Virus record (IMG/VR): IMGVR_UViG_3300046457_000027
Coordinates: 1 to 20,204 of that record
From: a virus
Direction: 5' to 3' (one strand)
Length of the DNA: 20,204 nt
Positions 1 through 14,860 of the stretch are shown here, piece by piece. Within the stretch, counting starts at the first letter, position 1, and every line of letters begins with the position of its first letter. The notes under the pieces are model-generated. The model was not told where the DNA came from and made no database searches. It was given only the letters and a program-made list of their open reading frames with translations. Made by a program: the position numbers and the translations under genes.

Positions 1-131
1 TCCTGTACGAAGCGTGCTTCTTGTCCAGCATCGGGAACATCTCGGAAGAGATTCACAGCACGGCGCACGACCTCTGGGAGGCTCTCGAATTCGTGGGTGT
101 TGAACCCGCTGACTTGGACACGCTTCACTGA
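1..131 (+). CDS. 3' end of an unidentified gene (partial)
   Basis: An open frame enters from the left edge (first full codon at position 3) and ends at a TGA (129-131) that overlaps the ATG of the amidase gene by one base. The visible 42 residues are acidic, end in PADLDTLH, and contain no motif I recognise. In T7 the gene before the lysozyme encodes endonuclease I, but this C-terminus does not resemble that enzyme, so I make no assignment. The stop/start overlap suggests it is co-transcribed and translationally coupled with the amidase. Confidence 0.6.
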   Translation, partial: LYEACFLSSIGNISEEIHSTAHDLWEALEFVGVEPADLDTLH

Positions 132-577
132 TGGCCTCGCTGACCACTGAATCTGTGGTCTACATTGTTATCCACAGTTCAAATACAAAACCAAGGCAGA
201 AAGTCAACAAGGCTTTCATCGAACGCCAGCATCGCCTTAAAGGGCGCCTGTGGGTCGGCTATCACTTCATCCTAGACCGCAAGGGGAACATCGAAACGGG
301 CCGCTCACTGGACCAAATCGGTGCCCACGCTCCGGGATTCGATAGTCAATCCATCGGCATCTGCTTGGCTGGCGGTATGGACCAGGAAGGCAGCCCCGCA
401 GACAACTTCACGAAGGACCAGCGGGAGAACCTTCTGACTCTCCTAACGTATCTCCACACGCAGTTCCCGCAGGCAATCGTAGTGGGGCATAGGGACCTCC
501 CTAACGCCACCACAAGCTGCCCGCAGTTCTCGGTCAAGCAGTTCCTCCAGGAGTCTGGATATGTTCACCCGCTTTAA
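131..577 (+). CDS. N-acetylmuramoyl-L-alanine amidase, T7 lysozyme (gp3.5) type
   Basis: The 148-residue protein is close in length to T7 gp3.5 (151) and aligns along its whole length. Zinc ligands are visible at H15 (IVIHSS), H120 (VVGHRD) and C130 (SCPQF), and the catalytic-type tyrosine at Y44 (VGYHF). The motifs GAHAPGFD (64-71) and SIGICLAGG (74-82) match T7 GSHAKGYN and SIGVCLVGG. The family cleaves the bond between N-acetylmuramate and L-alanine; in T7 the same protein also binds and inhibits the phage RNA polymerase, which cannot be read from this sequence. The residue aligning with T7 K128, needed for amidase activity there, is T128 here; Thr at this place is found in catalytic PGRP amidases, so activity is plausible. 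The start overlaps the previous stop. It lies early in the DNA-metabolism block, as in T7. Confidence 0.93.
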   Translation: MASLTTESVVYIVIHSSNTKPRQKVNKAFIERQHRLKGRLWVGYHFILDRKGNIETGRSLDQIGAHAPGFDSQSIGICLAGGMDQEGSPADNFTKDQRENLLTLLTYLHTQFPQAIVVGHRDLPNATTSCPQFSVKQFLQESGYVHPL

Positions 578-1792: not shown

Positions 1793-2001
1793 CCAACTCC
1801 CAAGCTACATACATCTCCGAACTCGAAGACTCCATCGTTGAAGCGGAGTGGGAAGTAGAGGACCTGAAGGCATCCATCCGTGAAGCTGCGGAGGAAGGCG
1901 GGGATACCTGGATTTTCTCGCAGATGCTTGAGCACGCTGAGCAGACCCTTCACGCCCTTCAAGAGGACCTCGATGTGGCTGAAGAGGCCTACGACCGCTG
2001 A
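1789..2001 (+). CDS. Small acidic coiled-coil protein (70 aa)
   Basis: Coupled to its neighbours by overlaps at both ends (ATGA at 1789; its last base is the first base of the primase-helicase ATG at 2001). The sequence is strongly acidic and has heptad-like spacing of hydrophobic residues through most of its length (ISELEDSIVEAEWEVEDLKA and ALQEDLDVAEEAY), predicting a helical hairpin or coiled coil. Only a short GGD stretch in the middle breaks the helix. Its place immediately before the primase-helicase suggests a replication accessory or adaptor role, but that is inference from location. Confidence 0.6.
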   Translation: MTNSQATYISELEDSIVEAEWEVEDLKASIREAAEEGGDTWIFSQMLEHAEQTLHALQEDLDVAEEAYDR

Positions 2002-3647
2002 TGACTGAAAGCGAGTTCCTCCAACATGAGCCGTGCCCTTCCTGTGGTAGCTCGGACGGGCTCGCTCGATACACCGATAACCACGCGTACTGCTTCGTCT
2101 GTAAGCACCGCGAGAGGGGCTCCGAAGATGGGGCTGTAGAACACACCCCAAGGAAGCCAATGGCAAAAGACCTGATTCTGGATGGAGAAGTAAAGGCCCT
2201 CAGCAAGCGCAAGCTCAGCGAGGAAACCTGTAGGAAGTTCGGGTACACCGTGGGGACCAGCAGTAAGGGCAACACGGTTCAACTGGCGCCGTACTTTGAT
2301 GGGCAGCAGATGGTTGCCCAGAAGATGCGGGACGCTGACAAGAACTTTGTCACGCTCGGAGACTTCAAGAACGCTGGCCTCTTCGGTCAGCAACTCTGGA
2401 GGGATGGCGGCAAGAAGGTGGTGGTAACGGAAGGCGAGATTGACTGCATGACCGTCTCCCAGCTCCAAGGCAACAAGTGGCCTGTTGTCTCCGTACCTAA
2501 TGGGGCACAGGGGGCCAAGAAGTCCCTGCAGAAGCACCTTGAGTGGCTTGAGCAGTTCGAGGAAATTGTGTTGCTGTTCGATATGGACGAACCGGGGCAA
2601 GCAGCGGTAGCCGAATGTGCCCCACTGTTCACTCCCGGCAAGTGCAAGGTGGCCAGCCTCCCGAACGGCTTCAAGGACCCGAACGAGATGCTGCTGGCAG
2701 GTAGGGGTTCCGAAGTCATCGATGCTGTATGGGGTGCCAAGACGTACCGCCCTGATGGCCTTGTGCGCATCGGGGACCTCCGCGAGAAGCTCCGCACCCC
2801 GGTGGTTATGGGCCTCCCCTGGTTCCTCCCCGAGCTCACTGAGTGGACCTACGGCCGCCGCTATGGGGAAATTTATGGGGTTGGTGCAGGTACTGGAGTA
2901 GGCAAGACCGACTTCCTCACCCAACAGATTGATTACGACATCAACGTACTCAAGCAGCGGGTGGGCACCATCTTCTTGGAGCAGCAGCCTGATGAAACAG
3001 TGCGGCGGGTGGCAGGGAAGATGTGCGGCAAGCGGTTTCACGTACCCAACGCTGGGTGGACGCAGGAGGAACTAGATGAGGCCGCTGACAAGCTGGAGCA
3101 CGAAGACCTGCTGCTTCTATACGACTCCTTTGGGGAGACCGAGTGGGATGTTGTGAAGGCCAAGGTGCGGTTCATGGCTGTCTCCGATGGCATCCGCATT
3201 ATCTACATCGACCACCTCACGGCGATGGCGGACACCGCTGATGAGAAGGGCAGCCTTGAGCAGATCATGAAAGAGATGGCAGGGCTCGCTAAGGAGCTCA
3301 ACATCATCATCATCTTCGTGTCCCACTTGACCACCCCCGAGAAGGGCAAGAGCCACGAGGAAGGTGGCCGGGTAACCATCCGCCACTTCAAGGGCTCCCG
3401 TGCAATTGGCTTCTGGGCGCACTACCTCTTCGGCCTAGAGCGCGACCAGCAGGCTGAGGAAGAGCGGCTCCAGCAGGTGACCACCCTCCGAGGACTCAAG
3501 GACCGCTACACAGGTCAGGCTACCGGGAAGGTCCTCTACTTAGGGTACACGGCCGAGACTGGCATGTTATTCCCGATTGATGGCAACCCATTCGAAGACG
3601 AGACCCAGGGCAAGAAGTCCCATTGGGACGAAGACGCACCTTTCTGA
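2001..3647 (+). CDS. Bifunctional DNA primase-helicase (T7 gp4 type)
   Basis: The 548-residue protein has the full T7 gp4 layout. The N-terminal zinc-binding domain has C12/C15 (CPSC) and C31/C34 (CFVC). The TOPRIM primase core follows, with E145 (TEGEID) and the acidic pair in LFDMDE (D194, D196). The RecA-like hexameric helicase has Walker A GAGTGVGKT (295-303), catalytic E327 (FLEQQ) and Walker B IYIDH (D404). The C-terminus is acidic and ends in an aromatic residue (DEDAPF), like the T7 tail that contacts polymerase. The enzyme makes RNA primers and unwinds the replication fork, with the DNA polymerase encoded downstream as partner. The start overlaps the previous stop. An internal in-frame ATG with its own ribosome site (2160) probably gives a shorter form. 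Confidence 0.96.
   Translation: MTESEFLQHEPCPSCGSSDGLARYTDNHAYCFVCKHRERGSEDGAVEHTPRKPMAKDLILDGEVKALSKRKLSEETCRKFGYTVGTSSKGNTVQLAPYFDGQQMVAQKMRDADKNFVTLGDFKNAGLFGQQLWRDGGKKVVVTEGEIDCMTVSQLQGNKWPVVSVPNGAQGAKKSLQKHLEWLEQFEEIVLLFDMDEPGQAAVAECAPLFTPGKCKVASLPNGFKDPNEMLLAGRGSEVIDAVWGAKTYRPDGLVRIGDLREKLRTPVVMGLPWFLPELTEWTYGRRYGEIYGVGAGTGVGKTDFLTQQIDYDINVLKQRVGTIFLEQQPDETVRRVAGKMCGKRFHVPNAGWTQEELDEAADKLEHEDLLLLYDSFGETEWDVVKAKVRFMAVSDGIRIIYIDHLTAMADTADEKGSLEQIMKEMAGLAKELNIIIIFVSHLTTPEKGKSHEEGGRVTIRHFKGSRAIGFWAHYLFGLERDQQAEEERLQQVTTLRGLKDRYTGQATGKVLYLGYTAETGMLFPIDGNPFEDETQGKKSHWDEDAPF
2150..2162 (+). promoter_or_regulatory. Internal ribosome site and ATG for a short helicase form (gp4B-like)
   Basis: AAGGA (2150-2154) precedes the in-frame ATG at 2160 by 5 nt. 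Translation from M54 would give a product of 495 residues lacking the zinc-binding domain but keeping TOPRIM and helicase domains. T7 makes exactly such a pair from one gene (gp4A and gp4B, the latter from Met64). The position just after the zinc domain and the good spacing make the same arrangement likely here. Confidence 0.6.
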
Positions 3648-3656
3648 GCACCCTAG

Positions 3657-3857
3657 ATGAAACAGAAGATTAGCCAGTGGACCGTGCGGCACCGTGAGCA
3701 AACCGTAGCGGGCCCGTGGACCACCCGCGCTATGGCTACTGCCCACATTGCGAAGGCGGTCCGTGACAACCCAGCCGTGAGCGTAGACCAGTACCAGATT
3801 GTGGAAGTGGTCTACCAACTCGAAGGCTTCAACTACTACCAACCGAAACTAGATTGA
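3657..3857 (+). CDS. Small protein of unknown function (66 aa)
   Basis: Starts 9 nt after the primase-helicase stop, with an in-frame TAG immediately upstream fixing the earliest possible start at this ATG; there is no clear Shine-Dalgarno sequence. The product begins MKQKISQWTVRHREQTVAGP and ends in a Tyr/Pro-rich tail (YYQPKLD). It has no membrane segment or recognised domain. Its TGA (3855-3857) overlaps the TTG start of the muramidase gene, so it may serve partly to couple ribosomes into that gene. Function not assignable. Confidence 0.6.
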   Translation: MKQKISQWTVRHREQTVAGPWTTRAMATAHIAKAVRDNPAVSVDQYQIVEVVYQLEGFNYYQPKLD

Positions 3858-4291
3858 ACTTCACATACAGCAAGAACGGCTTGGCACTCACGAAGCAATT
3901 CGAGGGGTGCAAGCTGACCGCGTATCAAGACTCAGTGGGTGTATGGACCATTGGCTACGGCCACACGGGCTCAATCGTCAACCGCATGGGAGTAGTTATC
4001 ACCCAAGCACAGGCGGACTCCTTGCTCATGCAAGACATCGCTCGCTTTGAGGACGGAGTGAACAAGTTGGTTAAGGTTCCCCTCAACCAGAACCAGTTCG
4101 ATGCCTTGGTGGACTTCTCGTTCAACCTCGGGCTGGGCAATCTGGGTAGCTCCACGCTGCTCAAGAAGCTCAACGCTGGGGACATCAAAGGGGCAGCGGA
4201 AGAGTTCCTGAGATGGGATAAGGCTGGCGGGAAGGTTCTCGCTGGGCTGACCAGACGCAGGAAAGCAGAGCGGGACTTGTTCCTGAGCTAA
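3854..4291 (+). CDS. Endolysin, GH24 muramidase (T4 lysozyme/RrrD type)
   Basis: The 145-residue protein has the GH24 catalytic layout: E17 (FEGCK), D26 (YQDSVG) and T32 (VWTIGYGHT), the same 9- and 6-residue spacing as E11, D20 and T26 of T4 lysozyme. FDALVDFSFNLG and the C-terminal LTRRRKAERDLF are typical of phage endolysins in this family. It hydrolyses the MurNAc-GlcNAc bond of peptidoglycan. No N-terminal signal-anchor is visible, so release would need a holin. The start is a TTG in a TTGA overlap with the previous gene; no strong ribosome site is present, so translational coupling is likely. An intrinsic terminator follows 22 nt after the stop. The phage thus carries two wall-degrading enzymes, this one and the amidase at 131. 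Confidence 0.93.
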   Translation: MNFTYSKNGLALTKQFEGCKLTAYQDSVGVWTIGYGHTGSIVNRMGVVITQAQADSLLMQDIARFEDGVNKLVKVPLNQNQFDALVDFSFNLGLGNLGSSTLLKKLNAGDIKGAAEEFLRWDKAGGKVLAGLTRRRKAERDLFLS

Positions 4292-4312
4292 GTAACACAC
4301 AAGCAAGTACAC

Positions 4313-4344
4313 AAGGGCTGCCTTCGGGTGGCCCTTTTCATTTT
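4313..4344 (+). terminator. Intrinsic terminator after the muramidase gene
   Basis: A 10-bp stem (AAGGGCTGCC with GGTGGCCCTT, including two G-U pairs) capped by a TTCG tetraloop is followed by TTTTCATTTT. This is a standard rho-independent terminator. It separates the block ending with the muramidase from the polymerase block and would cut host-RNA-polymerase transcription, and possibly part of the phage-polymerase transcription, at this boundary. Confidence 0.88.
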
Positions 4345-4366
4345 CTAAAGCTACTCGATAGGGAGA
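4344..4366 (+). promoter_or_regulatory. Possible phage RNA polymerase promoter (weak)
   Basis: Directly after the terminator, the sequence ends in ATAGGGAGA, identical to positions -3 to +6 of the T7 promoter. Further upstream, five of the remaining 14 promoter positions also match, including G at -11 and C at -7 and -5, but the usual CACT is not present in register. GGGAGA also serves as the ribosome site for the ATG at 4371, which could explain it alone. Location (after a terminator, before the polymerase block) favours a promoter; the match alone does not prove one. Confidence 0.28.
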
Positions 4367-4370
4367 GCGT

Positions 4371-4757
4371 ATGCGATTCGATGACAACCCGCTGGAGATG
4401 ACTCCGCGTGAAGCATGGCTGGAAATGCAGTACCTGAAGCTGAAGGGCGAGAACGAGTACCTGAAGCAAGCGAGTGGGCAGCGTTACAGCATGGCCGAGC
4501 CCCCTGAGACTCTGTATATGGACCGCAACATCCGTGTACTGCAACTGGCTGCCGAGTGCCGAGCAGTTAACGATGTCCAGCGGGATGGCCTCCACGTGAT
4601 GGTCCGCAGCAACACAACCGAATTCGGGGAGACAAGCCTAAAGTACTTCGTCTCTAACATGGCCCTGTACACAGCGCGGGACCGGGCAGCGGTAATGACT
4701 GACATGCACAAGAAGGTGGTCTTTGATATTGGCCGCCATCTCTGGGATGTCAAATGA
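4371..4757 (+). CDS. Protein of unknown function preceding DNA polymerase (128 aa)
   Basis: First gene after the terminator at 4313, with GGGAGA 5 nt upstream as ribosome site. The N-terminal half is probably helical (EAWLEMQYLKLKGENEYLKQ, near residues 14-33), which could be a short coiled coil; the C-terminal half is mixed. No membrane segment, zinc motif or catalytic signature is seen. The TGA overlaps the ATG of DNA polymerase (ATGA), so expression is coupled to the replication enzyme. I do not recognise the family. Confidence 0.75.
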   Translation: MRFDDNPLEMTPREAWLEMQYLKLKGENEYLKQASGQRYSMAEPPETLYMDRNIRVLQLAAECRAVNDVQRDGLHVMVRSNTTEFGETSLKYFVSNMALYTARDRAAVMTDMHKKVVFDIGRHLWDVK

Positions 4758-6598
4758 GGTTCATCGCTGACATCGAATCGAATGGGTTCCTGGACAAGGT
4801 AACCACCATTCATTGCTTGGTCCTCAAGGACCTCGACACAAGACAACATCACCGCTTCAACCACCTGCATGGGGGCCGCAGCATCGAAGAGGGCCTCGCC
4901 CTGCTGCAGAAGGCGGACCTCGTGGTGGGTCACAATTGGATTTCGTTTGACTACCCGGTTATCCAGAAGCTCTACCCCGGGTTCACTCTGGATGAATCCA
5001 AGGTCCTCGATACGCTGGTAATGGCCCGCCTCATCTACCCGGACCTCTGGGACATCGATACGGCCCTCTACGAGAAGGGCAAGCTCCCCGGCAATCTCCG
5101 TAAGCGCCAATCGTTGGAGGCCTGGGGTCACCGTCTGGGGCTCCATAAGGGGGACTACTCGGCTGAGATGAAGGCTAAGGGCTTGGACCCGTGGGAGTGC
5201 TGGAACATGCCGATGGAGGACTACTGCTGTGGCGATACGGATGTAACCGAGGCCCTGTTCAAGAAGCTGGAGGGGAAGAACTATTCCCAGATGGCTATCG
5301 AACTGGAGCATCAGGTGGCCTGGATCATCACCGCACAGGAGCGCCGTGGGTTCTCTTTCGACAAGGACGGGGCCGCCAAGCTGCTGGCTACGTTGGTCAA
5401 GGAGAAGCTCAAGATGGAAGAGGAGCTCACCGAAGTATTCAAGCCAATGTGGATGCGCGATGGGAAAATCTTCACCCCGAAGCGTGCTGACAAGAAGCGC
5501 GGCTATGAACCGGGTGTCCCCTTCCAGAAGATCAAGCTCACCGAGTTCAACGCCACGAGCCGTGACCACATCGCCCTCTGGCTGAAGCGCCTCTATGGCT
5601 GGACTCCGCTGGAGTTCGGCAAGGACGGGAAGCCCACGGTTGACGAAGAGGTCCTCGCAAAGCTGCCCTACAAGGAAGCTGAGGTGCTCGTGAAGTACCT
5701 CATGATTGGCAAGCGGCTGGGCCAGTTGGCTGAGGGCAAGGAAGCATGGTTGAGGCACGAGAAGAACGGGCGCATCCACGGTTCCGTAATGACCAACGGA
5801 GCGGTCACTGGGCGCATGACCCACAGCAAGCCTAACGTTGCTCAGGTCCCCAGCGTGAAGGTGGACAAGGCGGGCAACAAGCTGCTGGGCATGGAAGGCG
5901 GGTACGGAGTGGAGTGCCGCTCGCTGTACCGCGCAACCCCGGGCATGGCTCTGGTGGGCACTGACCTCTCAGGCATCGAGCTTCGCTGCTTGGCCCACTA
6001 CATGGCCCGCTGGGATGGTGGCGCCTATGGTGAGGTCCTGCTGAACGGGGACATCCACACGGAGAACCAGAAGGCTGCTGGCCTCCCCACGCGGAACAAC
6101 GCCAAGACGTTCATCTATGGGTTCCTCTACGGGGCCGGTGTGGAGAAGATTGGTTCCATCGTGGGCAAGGGGCGGGCTGAAGGAACCAAGCTCCGCAACA
6201 AGTTCCTGGCCTCCCTCCCCGCACTGAAGAGTCTCATCGATGCAGTACAGGCCAAGGCCAAGTCCGCTGGTGTTCTCATCGGCCTCGATGGTCGGCTCCT
6301 CCACGTTCGCTCTGCCCACTCCGCACTCAACACGCTCCTTCAAGGGGCTGGTGCTGCTATCGCTAAGCGCTGGTTGGTGGAGGTTGACCTTGGGCTGAAG
6401 GCGGCAGGCATCCGGGATGTGGTCCACCAAGTAGCCCACGTCCACGATGAGGTTGAACTGGAGTGCCCTGTGGAGCTGGCAGAGCAGGTCGCTCGGATTA
6501 CTCGGGAAGCGGCTGCCCGTGCTGGTGAGTTCTACAAAATCCGTATCCCTATCGCTGCTGAGTCCCACATTGGGGACACCTGGGCGAACGTTCACTAA
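4754..6598 (+). CDS. DNA polymerase, family A (T7 gp5 type)
   Basis: The 614-residue enzyme has a 3'-5' proofreading exonuclease domain with D6 and E8 (ADIE), D66 (ISFDYP) and D161 (CCGDTD), and a polymerase domain with motif A around D404 (GTDLSGIELRC), motif B with K451 and Y455 (RNNAKTFIYGFLYGAG) and motif C HDE at 564-566. These match T7 gp5 in order and spacing. It copies the phage genome with the primase-helicase. It is about 90 residues shorter than T7 gp5 (704); a large part of the difference is between the thumb helix (MEEELTEVF) and ATSRDHI, where T7 carries its thioredoxin-binding loop and this protein has only a basic segment of roughly 40 residues. The start overlaps the previous stop (ATGA). 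Confidence 0.97.
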   Translation: MRFIADIESNGFLDKVTTIHCLVLKDLDTRQHHRFNHLHGGRSIEEGLALLQKADLVVGHNWISFDYPVIQKLYPGFTLDESKVLDTLVMARLIYPDLWDIDTALYEKGKLPGNLRKRQSLEAWGHRLGLHKGDYSAEMKAKGLDPWECWNMPMEDYCCGDTDVTEALFKKLEGKNYSQMAIELEHQVAWIITAQERRGFSFDKDGAAKLLATLVKEKLKMEEELTEVFKPMWMRDGKIFTPKRADKKRGYEPGVPFQKIKLTEFNATSRDHIALWLKRLYGWTPLEFGKDGKPTVDEEVLAKLPYKEAEVLVKYLMIGKRLGQLAEGKEAWLRHEKNGRIHGSVMTNGAVTGRMTHSKPNVAQVPSVKVDKAGNKLLGMEGGYGVECRSLYRATPGMALVGTDLSGIELRCLAHYMARWDGGAYGEVLLNGDIHTENQKAAGLPTRNNAKTFIYGFLYGAGVEKIGSIVGKGRAEGTKLRNKFLASLPALKSLIDAVQAKAKSAGVLIGLDGRLLHVRSAHSALNTLLQGAGAAIAKRWLVEVDLGLKAAGIRDVVHQVAHVHDEVELECPVELAEQVARITREAAARAGEFYKIRIPIAAESHIGDTWANVH

Positions 6599-6613: not shown

Positions 6614-6913
6614 ATGTTAAACAAACTCAAGGGGTTCCTCCAGGGATTCCAGAGCCTCTCGATGTGGGAGGCGCAGTCGATGATTCCGCGCAAGGAACCG
6701 CAGCCCACCGATGCCAAGGATGTCCTCACTGAAGTCATCCAGCGTGCTCAATCCGGGGGCTTCAGTCTCCAGAACGATTACGCACGGACCAACGCTCAGG
6801 TGGTCGCTATGGCTGCCTCTTGTGGGTACATCACGACCGAGCAGAAGCGTGGCTCGTTTGGCCGCAAGTGGTTGGCTACAAGGAAAGGTAAGGCTTACCT
6901 GGAGGTGAACTGA
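6614..6913 (+). CDS. Possible winged-helix protein, unknown role (99 aa)
   Basis: AAAGGA (6601-6606) lies 7 nt before the ATG. After an N-terminal amphipathic stretch (MLNKLKGFLQGFQSL), residues 34-96 look like a small winged-helix fold: a helix (DVLTEVIQRAQ), a candidate recognition helix (NAQVVAMAASCGYI) and a wing-like end (RKWLATRKGKAYLEV), where W-x-x-T-x-x-G is common at the end of such domains. DNA binding is an inference from pattern only. The gene follows DNA polymerase and its TGA overlaps the i-spanin start. Confidence 0.7.
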   Translation: MLNKLKGFLQGFQSLSMWEAQSMIPRKEPQPTDAKDVLTEVIQRAQSGGFSLQNDYARTNAQVVAMAASCGYITTEQKRGSFGRKWLATRKGKAYLEVN

Positions 6914-7356
6914 TGTTCCCCCTATCGCTCCCCCTCAAGTGGATTGCTGGGGGTCTCCTAGCCCTCCTCATCCTCGCCATCGGCTACTTCTCAGTCCACA
7001 CCTACACCACCACAGTCCACCAGAACGGGCAGCTACAGGCCGCTAACGTGACCCTGAAGGCTGACTCTGCGAAGGCTTCAAGTGCTACGGAAGTGGCCGT
7101 GAAGAAGCTCCAGCAGTTCGACACCATCATCCAGAAGAAGGTAACGAATGAACAACACATCCAGCAAGACACTGCCCAGTTCGTCAATGCGCGCAAGCAG
7201 CTCGGTGTGCAGAGCGTGGCTGTTGATGCTTGGGCTACCGCTGCTGTGCCTGCTGCTGTCATTAGCAGCCTGTGTGAGCGCACCGCAATCCGTAGCTCCG
7301 ATTGTCACCGAGACCAAGACAGTCCAAATCCCGCAAGCACTGACCTCCCCCACTGA
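6913..7356 (+). CDS. i-spanin (Rz-like inner-membrane lysis protein)
   Basis: A strong ribosome site (GGAGGTG) precedes the ATG, which overlaps the previous stop. The 147-residue protein has one N-terminal transmembrane segment (residues about 9-28, IAGGLLALLILAIGYFSV) followed by a long periplasmic helical/coiled-coil region rich in Ala, Lys, Gln and Val (about 38-100), the layout of Rz-type i-spanins. The last quarter is compositionally odd (Cys, Pro, Asp) because the DNA there also encodes the o-spanin in another frame. With the lipoprotein at 7148 it would bridge inner and outer membranes and fuse them in the last step of lysis. Family assignment is by topology and by the overlapping partner, not by direct motif. 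Confidence 0.85.
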   Translation: MFPLSLPLKWIAGGLLALLILAIGYFSVHTYTTTVHQNGQLQAANVTLKADSAKASSATEVAVKKLQQFDTIIQKKVTNEQHIQQDTAQFVNARKQLGVQSVAVDAWATAAVPAAVISSLCERTAIRSSDCHRDQDSPNPASTDLPH

Positions 7357-7483
7357 GCCCGCTATCTGCAGGCTGGAAACCAACGGGGACTTGGTGGACT
7401 GCATCAAGGCGTACGACAACCAATTGCTCTCGTGCAATGCCGATAAGGCGAGCATCGAAGAGTTCCAGAAGGAGCCTAAGTGA
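7148..7483 (+). CDS. o-spanin (Rz1-like outer-membrane lipoprotein)
   Basis: This gene starts inside the i-spanin gene in the +1 frame and extends beyond it, the overlapping Rz/Rz1 arrangement. The ATG at 7148 has AAGAAGG 6 nt upstream; an ATG at 7187 would also give a full signal peptide but lacks a ribosome site. A hydrophobic segment (LLMLGLPLLCLLLSL) ends in the lipobox LAAC, predicting lipidation of C42. The mature part is about 70 residues with several prolines near its start (APQSVAPIV, IPQALTSPTEP), as usual for o-spanins. It would sit in the outer membrane and bind the i-spanin. AGAAGGAG near its 3' end is the ribosome site for the next gene. Confidence 0.87.
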   Translation: MNNTSSKTLPSSSMRASSSVCRAWLLMLGLPLLCLLLSLAACVSAPQSVAPIVTETKTVQIPQALTSPTEPAICRLETNGDLVDCIKAYDNQLLSCNADKASIEEFQKEPK

Positions 7484-7844: not shown

Positions 7845-8434
7845 ACCTGTTCGATCAATTCGAAGAAATCCTCAGCAAGCTCAAGGATGCTGGAATCATG
7901 GGAGCCCTCATCGCGGGGGGTGCTTGCCGCGACCACATCCTGGGCCGCCCCGTAAAAGATGTGGATGTCTTCGTGCCCTCGCAGCCGAACATCGATGTGA
8001 AGCTGGCGCAAGCCTTTGGGGCCTTCAACGTGAGCCCCATCATCGCCGCAGAGTACGCAGGTGCGGGTGGCGAGGTGGAGCACGTCTACGAGATTCAAGA
8101 GGAAGACGCGGACCCCTTCGCTCCCCATCCGTTGGAGCATGTGCCCGTTCAGGTCATCGTACTGGCACCTGGGCTGAACCCAGTTGAACGTGCTGCGCAC
8201 CATGACTTTGGCATCTGCCAAGCGTGGTATATCGGAGGTCGCGTCTTTAGTTGGACCGAAGCGTTCCACTTGGACATGCAATTCAGGACGTTCACCCTCA
8301 GCCAGTGTGAGGACCAGCAGCAGTTCGACCGCTCGATGCGCAGGTGGACCGGGAAGTTTGCCAAGCGGTTCCCTGAGTTCTCTCTGCATATCCCGGTGGG
8401 GTTCCATCACTTTGACCAGCAGGTGTTCGGTTGA
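7841..8434 (+). CDS. Nucleotidyltransferase-fold protein
   Basis: AAGGAG lies 9-10 nt before the ATG, which overlaps the previous stop. The 197-residue protein shows the nucleotidyltransferase signature: GGACRD (26-31), then LGRPVKDVDVFV with D40 and D42 as the two metal-binding aspartates. This is the active-site pattern of the Pol-beta superfamily (tRNA nucleotidyltransferase/poly(A) polymerase heads, MNT-type enzymes), and related proteins are common in T7-like phages. A third acidic residue, usually on a later strand, is not evident; the candidate strand reads VPVQVIVL. The target is unknown: it could modify a nucleotide, RNA or host protein. It sits in an operon just before the exonuclease. 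Confidence 0.75.
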   Translation: MNLFDQFEEILSKLKDAGIMGALIAGGACRDHILGRPVKDVDVFVPSQPNIDVKLAQAFGAFNVSPIIAAEYAGAGGEVEHVYEIQEEDADPFAPHPLEHVPVQVIVLAPGLNPVERAAHHDFGICQAWYIGGRVFSWTEAFHLDMQFRTFTLSQCEDQQQFDRSMRRWTGKFAKRFPEFSLHIPVGFHHFDQQVFG

Positions 8435-9192
8435 AGACCACCCTACTCTTGGATGCGGACATCTTCGCCTTCCGAATCGCTGCCACCTCCCAGAAGGCCT
8501 ACAAGTTCGATGGGGATGACGGCCCGGTGAGCCTGCAGGTGGATGACTGGGAGGATGTCTACCCCCGCGTGGATGAGGTCTTCGCCAACGTGAAGGCGCA
8601 CCTCAAGGCCGATGAGCTAATCGTCTGCCTTTCCTGCAAGACTGAGGAAGGCTTCCGCTTTGGCATCTACCCGGACTACAAGCAGAACCGGAAGGGCACC
8701 GCGCGGCCTGCCTACCTTCAGCCTTTGAAGGAGTACATGGCTGAGAAGTACCGCACCTACTGGAAGGGCACCCTTGAGGCGGATGACTGTATGGGGATTC
8801 TCTCCACGCATCCCACACTGGTCCCGGGTAAGAAGGTGATTATTTCGGAAGACAAAGATATGGCGACGGTCCCAGGGTGGCTCTACAACCCCGCCAAGGA
8901 CACCAAGCCGCGCCTCATCTCAGAGGAACAAGCAGAGTACTTCCACATGTACCAGACCCTCGTTGGGGACTCCACGGACAACTACAAAGGTTGCCCTGGG
9001 ATTGGCCCCGTGAAGGCTGAGAAGCTCCTGAAGGAAGCCCACCCGGCTGGCCTATGGGACATCGTGGTGGGAGCTTATGAAGCTAAGGGCCTCACCGAAG
9101 AAGATGCACTCCTGCAGGCGCGGCTTGCCCGCATCTGCCAACACACCGACTACGATTTTAAGAAGGCTCAGGTAATTTTATGGAACCCGTAA
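8431..9192 (+). CDS. 5'-3' exonuclease (T7 gp6 type)
   Basis: The 253-residue protein begins at a TTG overlapping the previous TGA. It has the FEN/5'-nuclease acidic cluster: D8 and D10 (LLLDADIF), EADD (116-119), and SEDKDM (D141, D143), the phosphate-binding segment YPDYKQNRK (80-88), and the helix-3-turn-helix region GDSTDNYKGCPGIGPVKAEK. T7 gp6 is longer (about 300) and has an insertion where this protein is compact. The family removes RNA primers, processes concatemer ends and degrades host DNA for nucleotide supply. It overlaps the small Cys-rich gene at 9180. Confidence 0.92.
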   Translation: MKTTLLLDADIFAFRIAATSQKAYKFDGDDGPVSLQVDDWEDVYPRVDEVFANVKAHLKADELIVCLSCKTEEGFRFGIYPDYKQNRKGTARPAYLQPLKEYMAEKYRTYWKGTLEADDCMGILSTHPTLVPGKKVIISEDKDMATVPGWLYNPAKDTKPRLISEEQAEYFHMYQTLVGDSTDNYKGCPGIGPVKAEKLLKEAHPAGLWDIVVGAYEAKGLTEEDALLQARLARICQHTDYDFKKAQVILWNP

Positions 9193-13285: not shown

Positions 13286-14860
13286 ATGGCAAACGCAACA
13301 GTCCTGGCCGGTGGTCAGATTAACGGTGCAGGCGCAACTGATGCCCTGTTCCTCAAGGTTTATGGCGGTGAAGTTCTCACGGCGTTCGATCAGAACAACG
13401 TGGTTATGCCGCTGCATACCGTCCGCACTATCTCGTCTGGTGAATAAGCAGTTCACTCTTGCCTGACGTTAAACACCGCGTTAATTGCTAGGACACCCCT
13501 CAGGGGCAATCAGCAGCCAAGCCTGACCTAACGGCAGGAAGGTTCAACGACTATCCCGAAAGGGAGTAGGGAGAATGCTCTCCCCAAACGCGCGGCACTA
13601 TCTTAAAAGGAAATAGCAATAGCAAAATGACGACGAAGGTCTGTCGTATCTGCCGGACTGAAAAGCCGCTTAGCGAGTATTATCAAAGGGACTCCGGTGT
13701 CCACAGAAACGAATGTAAAGAGTGCACGAAAGAACTGCACAGGTATCGTACGTTCGGAATCTGCAATGCTAAGTATGATGAAATGCTAACCGCCCAGCAT
13801 GGTAAATGTGCAATCTGTGAAAGCGTGCTGAATAGCTCGCGCTACACAAAGCTTGCCGTTGACCATGACCACAAAACCGGTAAGGTTCGTGGACTTCTAT
13901 GTATGAATTGCAACACTGGCCTAGGACTGTTTAAAGACAGCCCGATTCGGATTCAGAATGCAATCGCTTACCTAGAGCGGTCTGGTAGTAAAGATATAGT
14001 CTGAGCTGTATGGCGACATACAGGTGGGTTAATTCCCCGGTAAGGACTCGCAACCCTTATTGAACATCGCACTGAAGAGTGCACAATTCCCGGCAACGTG
14101 GCGCGTCACGGGTGGTTACCACACCGCAGGTACGGAAATCGTTGGTCAGACTTCGAACCTCGCAGAACGCATTATCACCATCGATGACCTCTTGGTATCG
14201 AGCGTGTTCATTGCTGACATCGATGAAGCGAAGTCGCACTTCGATTACCGTAGCACCTACTCGGCTGAAACGGGCCGCTTCCTGGCAGCAAACTGGGACA
14301 AGAACGTGATGCAGGTTATGGCTCTCGCAGCCCGTGCTTCGGCTACGGTTACGGGTGCTGTTGGCGGCACGGTTCTCACCTCGGCCACCACGCTGTACAA
14401 GACCTCGGCAACGGACCTCGCTGCTGGTATCTACGCTGCAGTTCAAGCGTTCGATGAGAAGGACATTCCGATTACCTCGGAGCGTAACGCTCTCGTGCGT
14501 CCGGCTCAGTACTACCTCCTGGCGCAATCGACCGCACTGGTCAACCGCGACTGGGCAGAAGGCAATGGTAACTACGGCACGGGCAAGCTGCTGAAGATTG
14601 GTGGTGCAAACATCATCAAGACGAACCACGTCCCGAGCACGAACGTCACCACGGGTCCGACCGCTTATCAGGGTGACTTCACGAAGACCGCTGCCATCAT
14701 CACCACGAAGGAAGCAGTGGGCACGGTAAAGCTGCTCGACCTGAGCATGCGGATGTCGTACGACGAGCGCCGCTTGGGCACGCTGATCGTGAGCAAGTAC
14801 GCGGTTGGGCACGGGCTCCTTCGCCCGGAGTGCGCAGTTGAACTCGTCACGACCACGTAA
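13286..14860 (+). CDS. Major capsid protein (T7 gp10 type), split by a group I intron
   Basis: The gene is two exons: 13286-13441 (52 codons) and 14075-14860 (261 codons plus stop). Joined, they encode 313 residues (T7 gp10A is 345). Exon 1 contains DALFLKVYGGEVLTAFDQ and ends HTVRTISSG; exon 2 begins KSAQFPATWRVTGGYHTAGT. T7 gp10 reads VRSISSGKSAQFP across the same place, so the junction restores a conserved motif. Exon 2 carries IITIDDLLVSSVFIADIDEA and ends AVGTVKLLDLSMRM, YAVGHGLLRPE, also as in gp10. The protein forms the icosahedral shell. Without splicing, translation ends after SSGE at a TAA (13445-13447). The ATG lacks a strong Shine-Dalgarno sequence. A terminator follows 18 nt after the stop. 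Confidence 0.95.
13442..14074 (+). ncRNA. Group I intron (IA2-like, td-type) in the major capsid gene
   Basis: Splice sites are fixed by pairing. P1: exon CGUCUGGU (13434-13441) with internal guide GCCUGACG (13461-13468), 7 of 8 pairs including the U-G wobble at the 5' site. P10: CACUCUU (13454-13460), next to the guide, pairs over 7 bp with the first exon 2 bases AAGAGUG (14075-14081). The intron ends in G (14074). P7 strands are GACUA (13549-13553, in UUCAACGACUAUCCC) and UAGUC (13997-14001, in AGAUAUAGUCUG). A P9-like hairpin, CUGUAUG-GCGA-CAUACAG (14006-14023), has a GNRA loop. The core and the 3' domain (ATTCCCCGGTAAGG, TTGAACAT) closely resemble the T4 td intron as I remember it. The HNH ORF occupies the loop between the P7 strands. 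Confidence 0.93.
13627..14004 (+). CDS. Intron-encoded HNH homing endonuclease (endonuclease VII type)
   Basis: The 125-residue protein has an N-terminal zinc module (C6-x2-C9, C30-x2-C33) and a second one framing the nuclease centre: C61-x2-C64 and C92-x2-C95. Between them lies LAVDHDHKTG with D79-H80, and N96 follows the last cysteine, corresponding to D40 and N62 of T4 endonuclease VII. Such enzymes cleave intronless alleles of the host gene so that repair copies the intron in. AAAAGG (13605-13610) is about 16 nt from the ATG, a poor spacing that may keep expression low. Its sequence is more AT-rich in codon choice than the neighbouring virion genes, consistent with separate ancestry. The last codons (GAT ATA GTC TGA) overlap the ribozyme core. 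Confidence 0.92.
   Translation: MTTKVCRICRTEKPLSEYYQRDSGVHRNECKECTKELHRYRTFGICNAKYDEMLTAQHGKCAICESVLNSSRYTKLAVDHDHKTGKVRGLLCMNCNTGLGLFKDSPIRIQNAIAYLERSGSKDIV

Follow-up and report, generated by a model that had tools for sequence, protein, structure and literature searches.

The window, by which we mean the whole 20,204-nucleotide stretch of viral DNA analysed here (positions 1 to 20,204 of IMG/VR record IMGVR_UViG_3300046457_000027), encodes a T7-like DNA polymerase whose thumb carries a loop of exactly 37 residues at the site where T7 gp5 has its thioredoxin-binding domain. This short loop is a real feature and an ordinary one for its group, and the main interest of the result is that it reverses the usual view, in that the thioredoxin clamp of T7 looks like the special case. 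We lean towards a reading in which the loop, predicted to form a short basic hairpin, acts directly in place of the clamp and leaves the polymerase independent of thioredoxin.

The four-protein T7 replisome with host thioredoxin is the textbook model and has been carried over to relatives of the phage. A paper on cyanopodoviruses, in its available text, names thioredoxin as the processivity factor and expects mechanisms like those of T7 (PMC9860041), and despite this expectation the cyanophage polymerases that we measured, those of P-SSP7 and S-CBP3, have loops of 32 residues. That phiKMV-like phages have lost the T7-type domain, and that the site varies, is already published in the portions of the sources at hand (PMC5653853; PMC3556154), the second of which reports an extended loop in phiCbK. 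Our literature search found no survey of loop variation, no account of a short basic hairpin, and nothing stating that the domain is missing from polymerases like those of LUZ100, the roseophages or the pelagiphages. Thioredoxin dependence would not extend to the relatives of T7 were the short basic hairpin the common state, and how such polymerases stay on DNA would then become a question testable in isolates such as LUZ100.

The polymerase and its thumb loop

The polymerase (614 aa; positions 4754–6598, + strand) matches the DNA_pol_A profile PF00476 at 144.2 bits against a cut-off of 34.3, with no NCBIfam match above cut-offs. In the structure comparison it aligned over its whole length with T7 polymerase (2ajq_A; Z 42.4, rmsd 2.0 over 587 residues). 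The T7 polymerases are its best solved relatives, their chains occupying ranks 1–20 (Z 42.4–32.2) ahead of Pol I-type chains (Z ≤31.4); the polymerase families among the 50 rows listed by VIA-align were the T7 and Pol I types and no others, a listing that excludes nothing. The original prediction that all catalytic motifs are intact is borne out, as the exonuclease positions D6, E8, D66 and D161 and the polymerase positions D404, R447, K451, Y455, Y459 and H564-D565-E566 all line up with those of T7. The window also holds a T7-type replication neighborhood of gp4-like, gp6-like and gp5.7-like genes; in this module a family profile match identifies a 5'-3' exonuclease (8431–9192, + strand). We place the phage among T7-like phages outside the T7 subfamily, with this enzyme as its replicative family A polymerase. 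As a separate observation, the polymerase gene is mosaic. Relative to the close relative L005, codons 1–229 differ by one synonymous change only and codons 267–360 by 17 synonymous and 5 nonsynonymous changes; beyond about residue 360 the polymerase diverges further from L004, with 12 extra residues near 369–384.

The loop comprises residues 230–266 (5441–5551, + strand), located by anchor alignment between MEEELTEVF (221–229) and ATSRDHI (267–273); the same anchors applied to T7 gp5 (taken from NC_001604) enclose 74 residues. These lengths agree with what had been proposed from the sequence, namely about 37 residues within positions 4980–5590 and roughly 80 in T7. The accompanying description of the loop as mostly basic stands in part: the loop is basic, with 10 K/R and 4 D/E among its 37 residues, and not mostly so. 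A T7-type thumb insert of about 71–76 residues is not present (37 against 74 residues, and 32 relative to Pol I). When compared with E. coli Pol I by HHalign, window residues 226–257 (32 residues) had no counterpart, which makes the short loop an insertion in its own right, not a gap.

The AlphaFold2 model, a single chain built from 27 alignment rows with a mean pLDDT of 92.6, predicts the loop to be an ordered β-hairpin with strands at residues 232–240 (5447–5473, + strand) and 257–263 (5522–5542, + strand), the pLDDT of the blocks covering it being 81–88. The loop alignment places the motif region at residues 240–254, FTPKRADKKRGYEPG (5471–5515, + strand). In this alignment the stretches that T7 has in addition to the window core are 268–278, 283–284 and 296–319, 37 residues in total, and we take the basic loops of T7 to lie at about 275–285 and 299–314. 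The T7-only stretches overlap T7 regions 269–288 and 294–302, which were crosslinked to template DNA according to the available part of the report (PMC9198812).

Compared with the window, the loop codons of four close relatives carry synonymous/nonsynonymous changes of 3/0 (L004), 5/3 (L005), 7/2 (L008) and 6/0 (L010). Because of these changes, and because loops of 35–37 residues recur in 48 of 107 polymerases, the short loop is not a sequencing accident. A decaying, degenerate domain was also considered; it is ruled out by the conserved length class, motif and charge, and by changes in the relatives that are mainly synonymous.

Loop length, charge and motif among relatives

Polymerases were collected by two IMG/VR scans and one genome-contig scan and from named phages, giving 148 usable sequences and, at 90% identity, 107 non-redundant ones including that of the window (an earlier set of 68 rows had given 46). 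The second IMG/VR scan contributed the best 80 loci of at least 600 stretches, so the proportions describe relatives near the window enzyme rather than all phages, and the sample leans towards the window since its members were fetched by similarity to the window polymerase. The first loop alignment had 63 rows and, once the loopless fragments L042 and L050 were dropped, 61 loops of 17–113 residues; also left out of the loop counts were a copy of the window (L001), a chimaeric contig (L032) and four distant or badly aligned loci (L063, L069, L070 and L072). In L032, positions 2482–5907 form a 1142-aa open frame that runs from a polymerase into a T7-type terminase (PF22530), and the contig is probably chimaeric.

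Among the 107 polymerases of this sample with its best 80 loci, 28 have loops of ≤24 residues, 60 of 25–45, 9 of 46–60 and 10 of >60 residues, and the 35–37-residue loops account for 48 (15 + 26 + 7). Of the named phages and proviruses, loops of ≤45 residues are found in LUZ100 (36), CRP-125 (35), HTVC031P (35), HTVC109P (24), RHEph21 (35), S2B (42), jiawei (42), S-CBP3 (32), P-SSP7 (32) and SIO1 (44) and at a Litchfieldella locus (36) and a Caballeronia locus (24), while loops of >60 residues occur in T7 (74), IME205 (74), Keeri (65), Vibrio N4 (65), BB8 (64) and Lo5R7ANS (68). The insert had been called reduced in the original prediction, a term that probably has the direction wrong: most of the sampled relatives have a short loop, and both inserts are missing from Pol I.

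We calculated a maximum-likelihood tree of 44 rows with the loop and hairpin columns excluded and the fragments L053 and L064 also dropped; it comes from a quick search, is rooted on SIO1, whose branch is very long, and contains several open forks. On this tree the four sampled Studiervirinae group together (SH-aLRT 100) among short-loop relatives, the loop classes (≤24, mid-size and ≥54 residues) require at least eight changes and the fork hairpin two, and 26 of the 44 rows have mid-size loops, more than have any other class. Growth in the line of T7 is favoured over loss in that of the window enzyme because mid-size loops are commonest and Pol I lacks both inserts. As far as can be judged from these sequences and a root that is not secure, the thioredoxin-binding domain of T7 is probably a later expansion rather than the rule.

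Large loops outside the Studiervirinae occupy the same site as that of T7, and in the loop alignment several of their inserts fall after the PK motif and before the GY motif. In L043 the loop of 79 residues (240–318) is predicted to be a ten-stranded β elaboration of the same hairpin (pLDDT 78–89). The 60-residue loops of L024, L101, L109 and L123 share an SKxEAxxxAKxWAK-like stretch unlike the T7 domain.

The charge of the mid-size loops was compared with that of random windows of the same length from the same proteins. In the sample with the best 80 loci, these loops (32–45 residues, n = 60) have a mean net charge of +4.1 against 0.44 (sd 0.45) for the random windows, and 0 of 2000 random draws lay above a net charge of 1.8; the loop sequences are related, so the comparison is not a probability. 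Net positive charge is found in 57 of the 60 mid-size loops and in 103 of the 107 loops of all sizes in that sample. Taken protein by protein, the basic charge is modest: of 28 mid-size loops, three rank in the top 5% of windows of their own protein, the median share being 0.155; the window loop, with a share of 0.029, is one of the three. P242 is found in 25 of these 28 loops, K243 in 27, G250 in 26 and Y251 in 23, and the PK..N plus GY motif occurs in 44 of the 60 mid-size loops from the best-80-loci sample. Conservation in the motif region exceeds that of the whole enzyme only moderately (0.68 against 0.60), a level matched by 30% of 15-residue windows.

Thioredoxin contacts and the fork-facing hairpin

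A molecular-dynamics paper, in the text available, identifies E319 and E330 of T7 gp5 as salt-bridge partners of thioredoxin and names Y265, P325 and V329 as thioredoxin contacts (PMC5984650). In the window enzyme E330 is replaced by K261 and T327 by Q, E319 falls in an alignment gap, and three contacts are kept in kind (Y265 as W233, P325 as P256 and V329 as I260). Among 42 rows from outside the Studiervirinae, 29 have K at the E330 position and 38 have a gap at E319. Across the four Studiervirinae rows E330 is E, E, Q and T and E319 also varies; with Q or T in two of these rows, the E330 salt bridge is weakened as proof against thioredoxin. Weak binding may remain, since some hydrophobic contact positions are kept in kind.

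Thioredoxin is, to our knowledge, to be expected in all bacterial hosts. It might be proposed that thioredoxin binding persists, with enough of the T7 contact surface retained at the hairpin base, at W233, P256 and I260, while the T7-only stretches serve DNA and tail binding and not the docking of thioredoxin. We regard this as unlikely: half of the T7 domain is missing, and the lysine at E330 and the gap at E319 prevail outside the Studiervirinae in the numbers given above, although both positions vary within the T7 subfamily too. A search for a phage-encoded thioredoxin gene gave 0 of 20 related records above the cut-off (control 13/14) and one for a phage β-clamp gene 0 of 14 (control 10/14), in records none of which has a completeness value of ≥90% in the tables; gene absence from such fragmentary records proves little. 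In L065, the record behind L036, a 108-codon open frame gives a thioredoxin-like match of 19 bits, below the cut-off of 23.5. Processivity without thioredoxin is plausible on the sequence evidence.

The window enzyme also lacks a second T7 element, one missing from the original prediction: the fork-facing β-hairpin that carries W579, together with the stretch K587–R591, for which we presume a tail-binding role in T7. In the T7 alignment their site corresponds to residues 500–510 (6251–6283, + strand), where the AlphaFold2 model has a strand pair only at 507–509/515–517. The available text of two papers places the W579 hairpin of T7 at the fork opening and reports that its exchange for a linker lowered DNA binding, removed the help in helicase loading and halved coupled synthesis (PMC8835902; PMC8472574). 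At least 15 residues are present at this site in 7 of the 107 polymerases (sample with the best 80 loci), namely those of the Studiervirinae T7, IME205, Vibrio N4 and Keeri and of RHEph21, L106 and L140. The inserts of RHEph21 (L058), L140 and L106, of 41, 25 and 19 residues, are unlike in sequence. The thumb hairpin and the fork hairpin appear to be two sites of repeated module gain in T7-like polymerases.

We advance tentatively, and with slightly less than even confidence, an evolutionary reading of these inserts. The 35–37-residue basic hairpin, F-[ITV]-P-K-x-x-N-[KR]-x-x-G-Y-x-x-G, would be an older element for thioredoxin-independent processivity and tail docking; the T7 domain would have arisen from this core at a later stage, through two main inserts and along with the fork hairpin, in the Studiervirinae, and other lineages would have expanded the hairpin independently. 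Were this true, thioredoxin would be a peculiarity of T7's subfamily.

Candidate partners at the fork and comparison with known systems

The T7 gp4-like primase-helicase of the window, a fused protein of 548 aa recognized by a family profile match (2001–3647, + strand), has an acidic, Phe-ended C-terminal tail, DGNPFEDETQGKKSHWDEDAPF (3579–3644, + strand), that closes with ...HWDEDAPF. In the tail counts, which cover loci up to L078 and not L079–L158, helicase tails end in Phe at 56 of 61 loci (43 of 48 distinct tails) and are net acidic in 47 of the 48 distinct tails, and SSB tails end in Phe at 40 of 41 loci and are acidic in 36 of 36 distinct tails. The SSB gene lies beyond the window and is present in three of four close-relative records. 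For T7, the portions of the sources at hand state that the helicase tails bind positive patches on the polymerase (PMC8472574) and that the SSB tail binds via the thioredoxin-binding domain (PMC7699545). Since the tails are kept while the known landing places of T7 are absent, the basic hairpin is, by analogy, a natural candidate for the tail site. The positively charged cleft K545/K549/K553 of T7 is R, T and N in the window enzyme, because of which coupling may differ from T7 altogether.

In the reading that we favour, in which the hairpin itself stands in for the clamp, its basic residues would contact the primer-template duplex, catch the acidic Phe-ended tails of the helicase and SSB, or do both. 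Functional thioredoxin binding would be absent, and a tether to the helicase would keep the polymerase at the fork, so that processivity would come from this coupling and not from a thioredoxin clamp. The proposal builds on the observed loop lengths, alignment, conservation, charge and tails and on a predicted fold. An enzyme with no replacement for the clamp would be a low-processivity, perhaps error-prone replicase that depends on repeated rebinding, as proposed for phiKMV-like phages without the domain in the available text of one paper (PMC5653853). We consider this distinctly improbable for the window enzyme, in which the loop is conserved, basic, predicted to be ordered and not decayed, and whose group has retained the acidic tails of helicase and SSB.

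We give marginally less credence again to the idea that another phage or host protein binds the short hairpin as a processivity factor, a role for which the small proteins next to the polymerase had been suggested. Several small genes annotated without function do lie near the polymerase, and independent larger loops at the same site, such as the 79 residues and ten predicted strands of L043, could hold partners. However, the gene for an unknown 128-aa protein, an open reading frame that overlaps the polymerase start (4371–4757, + strand), is missing from L004, L008 and L010, three of the eight close relatives holding the region, and a 66-aa gene is missing from L008, one of the eight; the loop is nevertheless kept, identical in L004 and L010 and with two residues different in L008. 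The 99-aa protein (6614–6913, + strand) belongs by family match to the T7 gp5.7 family (phrog_1334), which thioredoxin-using T7 also has, and eight small window genes (g711, g1607, g1789, g3657, g4371, g7148, g7480 and g9180) matched 0 of 67 distant loci, many of them fragments, in phmmer searches. Within the reach of these comparisons we reject the neighbouring small genes as obligate partners, since they are absent from relatives that keep the loop or shared with T7.

Set beside T7 gp5 with host thioredoxin, the window enzyme has the same whole-length family A fold and catalytic residues, the same gp4-like primase-helicase with an acidic Phe-ended tail and the same gp5.7-family neighbour, but it differs in the thumb insert (74 residues in T7 against 37), in the cleft lysines, which it has not kept, and in the W579 β-hairpin and K587–R591 stretch, found only in T7 of the two. 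LUZ100, Roseobacter phage CRP-125 and Pelagibacter phage HTVC031P (Autographiviridae outside the Studiervirinae) have loops of the same type (36, 35 and 35 residues) and are also without the β-hairpin; at 50, 49 and 45% identity to the window polymerase, they differ from it by sequence divergence only. Our search found no experimental work on these three polymerases, and the available text of the LUZ100 paper makes no mention of thioredoxin.

The phiKMV-like (Krylovirinae) polymerases lack the thioredoxin-binding domain according to the accessible part of one study (PMC5653853), and the T7-type domain is missing from the window enzyme as well, but the phiKMV polymerase has 807 aa with other insertions in the same stretch, and phiKMV has separate primase and helicase-like genes whereas the window has a fused T7-like primase-helicase. 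Plant organellar DNA polymerases work in a T7-like replisome and have thumb insertions proposed to face DNA, as described in the text at hand (PMC7699545); their likeness to the window enzyme is taken here from that description of the thumb insertions. E. coli Pol I (Klenow part) shares the fold (Z about 31) and has no fork-facing β-hairpin, but is without the 32-residue insert 226–257 of the window enzyme altogether.

An Rz-like spanin gene (phrog_214; 6913–7483, + strand) adjoins the polymerase inside the replication region, and a second ORF (7148–7483) overlaps it in another frame. By comparison with annotated relatives, the ORF at 131–577 (+ strand) reads as an amidase resembling T7 lysozyme and that at 3854–4291 (+ strand) as another lysozyme-like protein, both of them putative cell-wall enzymes; the ORF at 3854–4291 lies between helicase and polymerase, and a different ORF takes its place in L008. 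A group I intron (RF00028, 77.8 bits; 13396–14023, + strand) holds an endonuclease VII-type ORF (PF02945; 13627–14004) and is flanked by ORFs at 13286–13447 and 14060–14860, which, judging from the ORF list and gene order, are apparently two parts of the major capsid gene.
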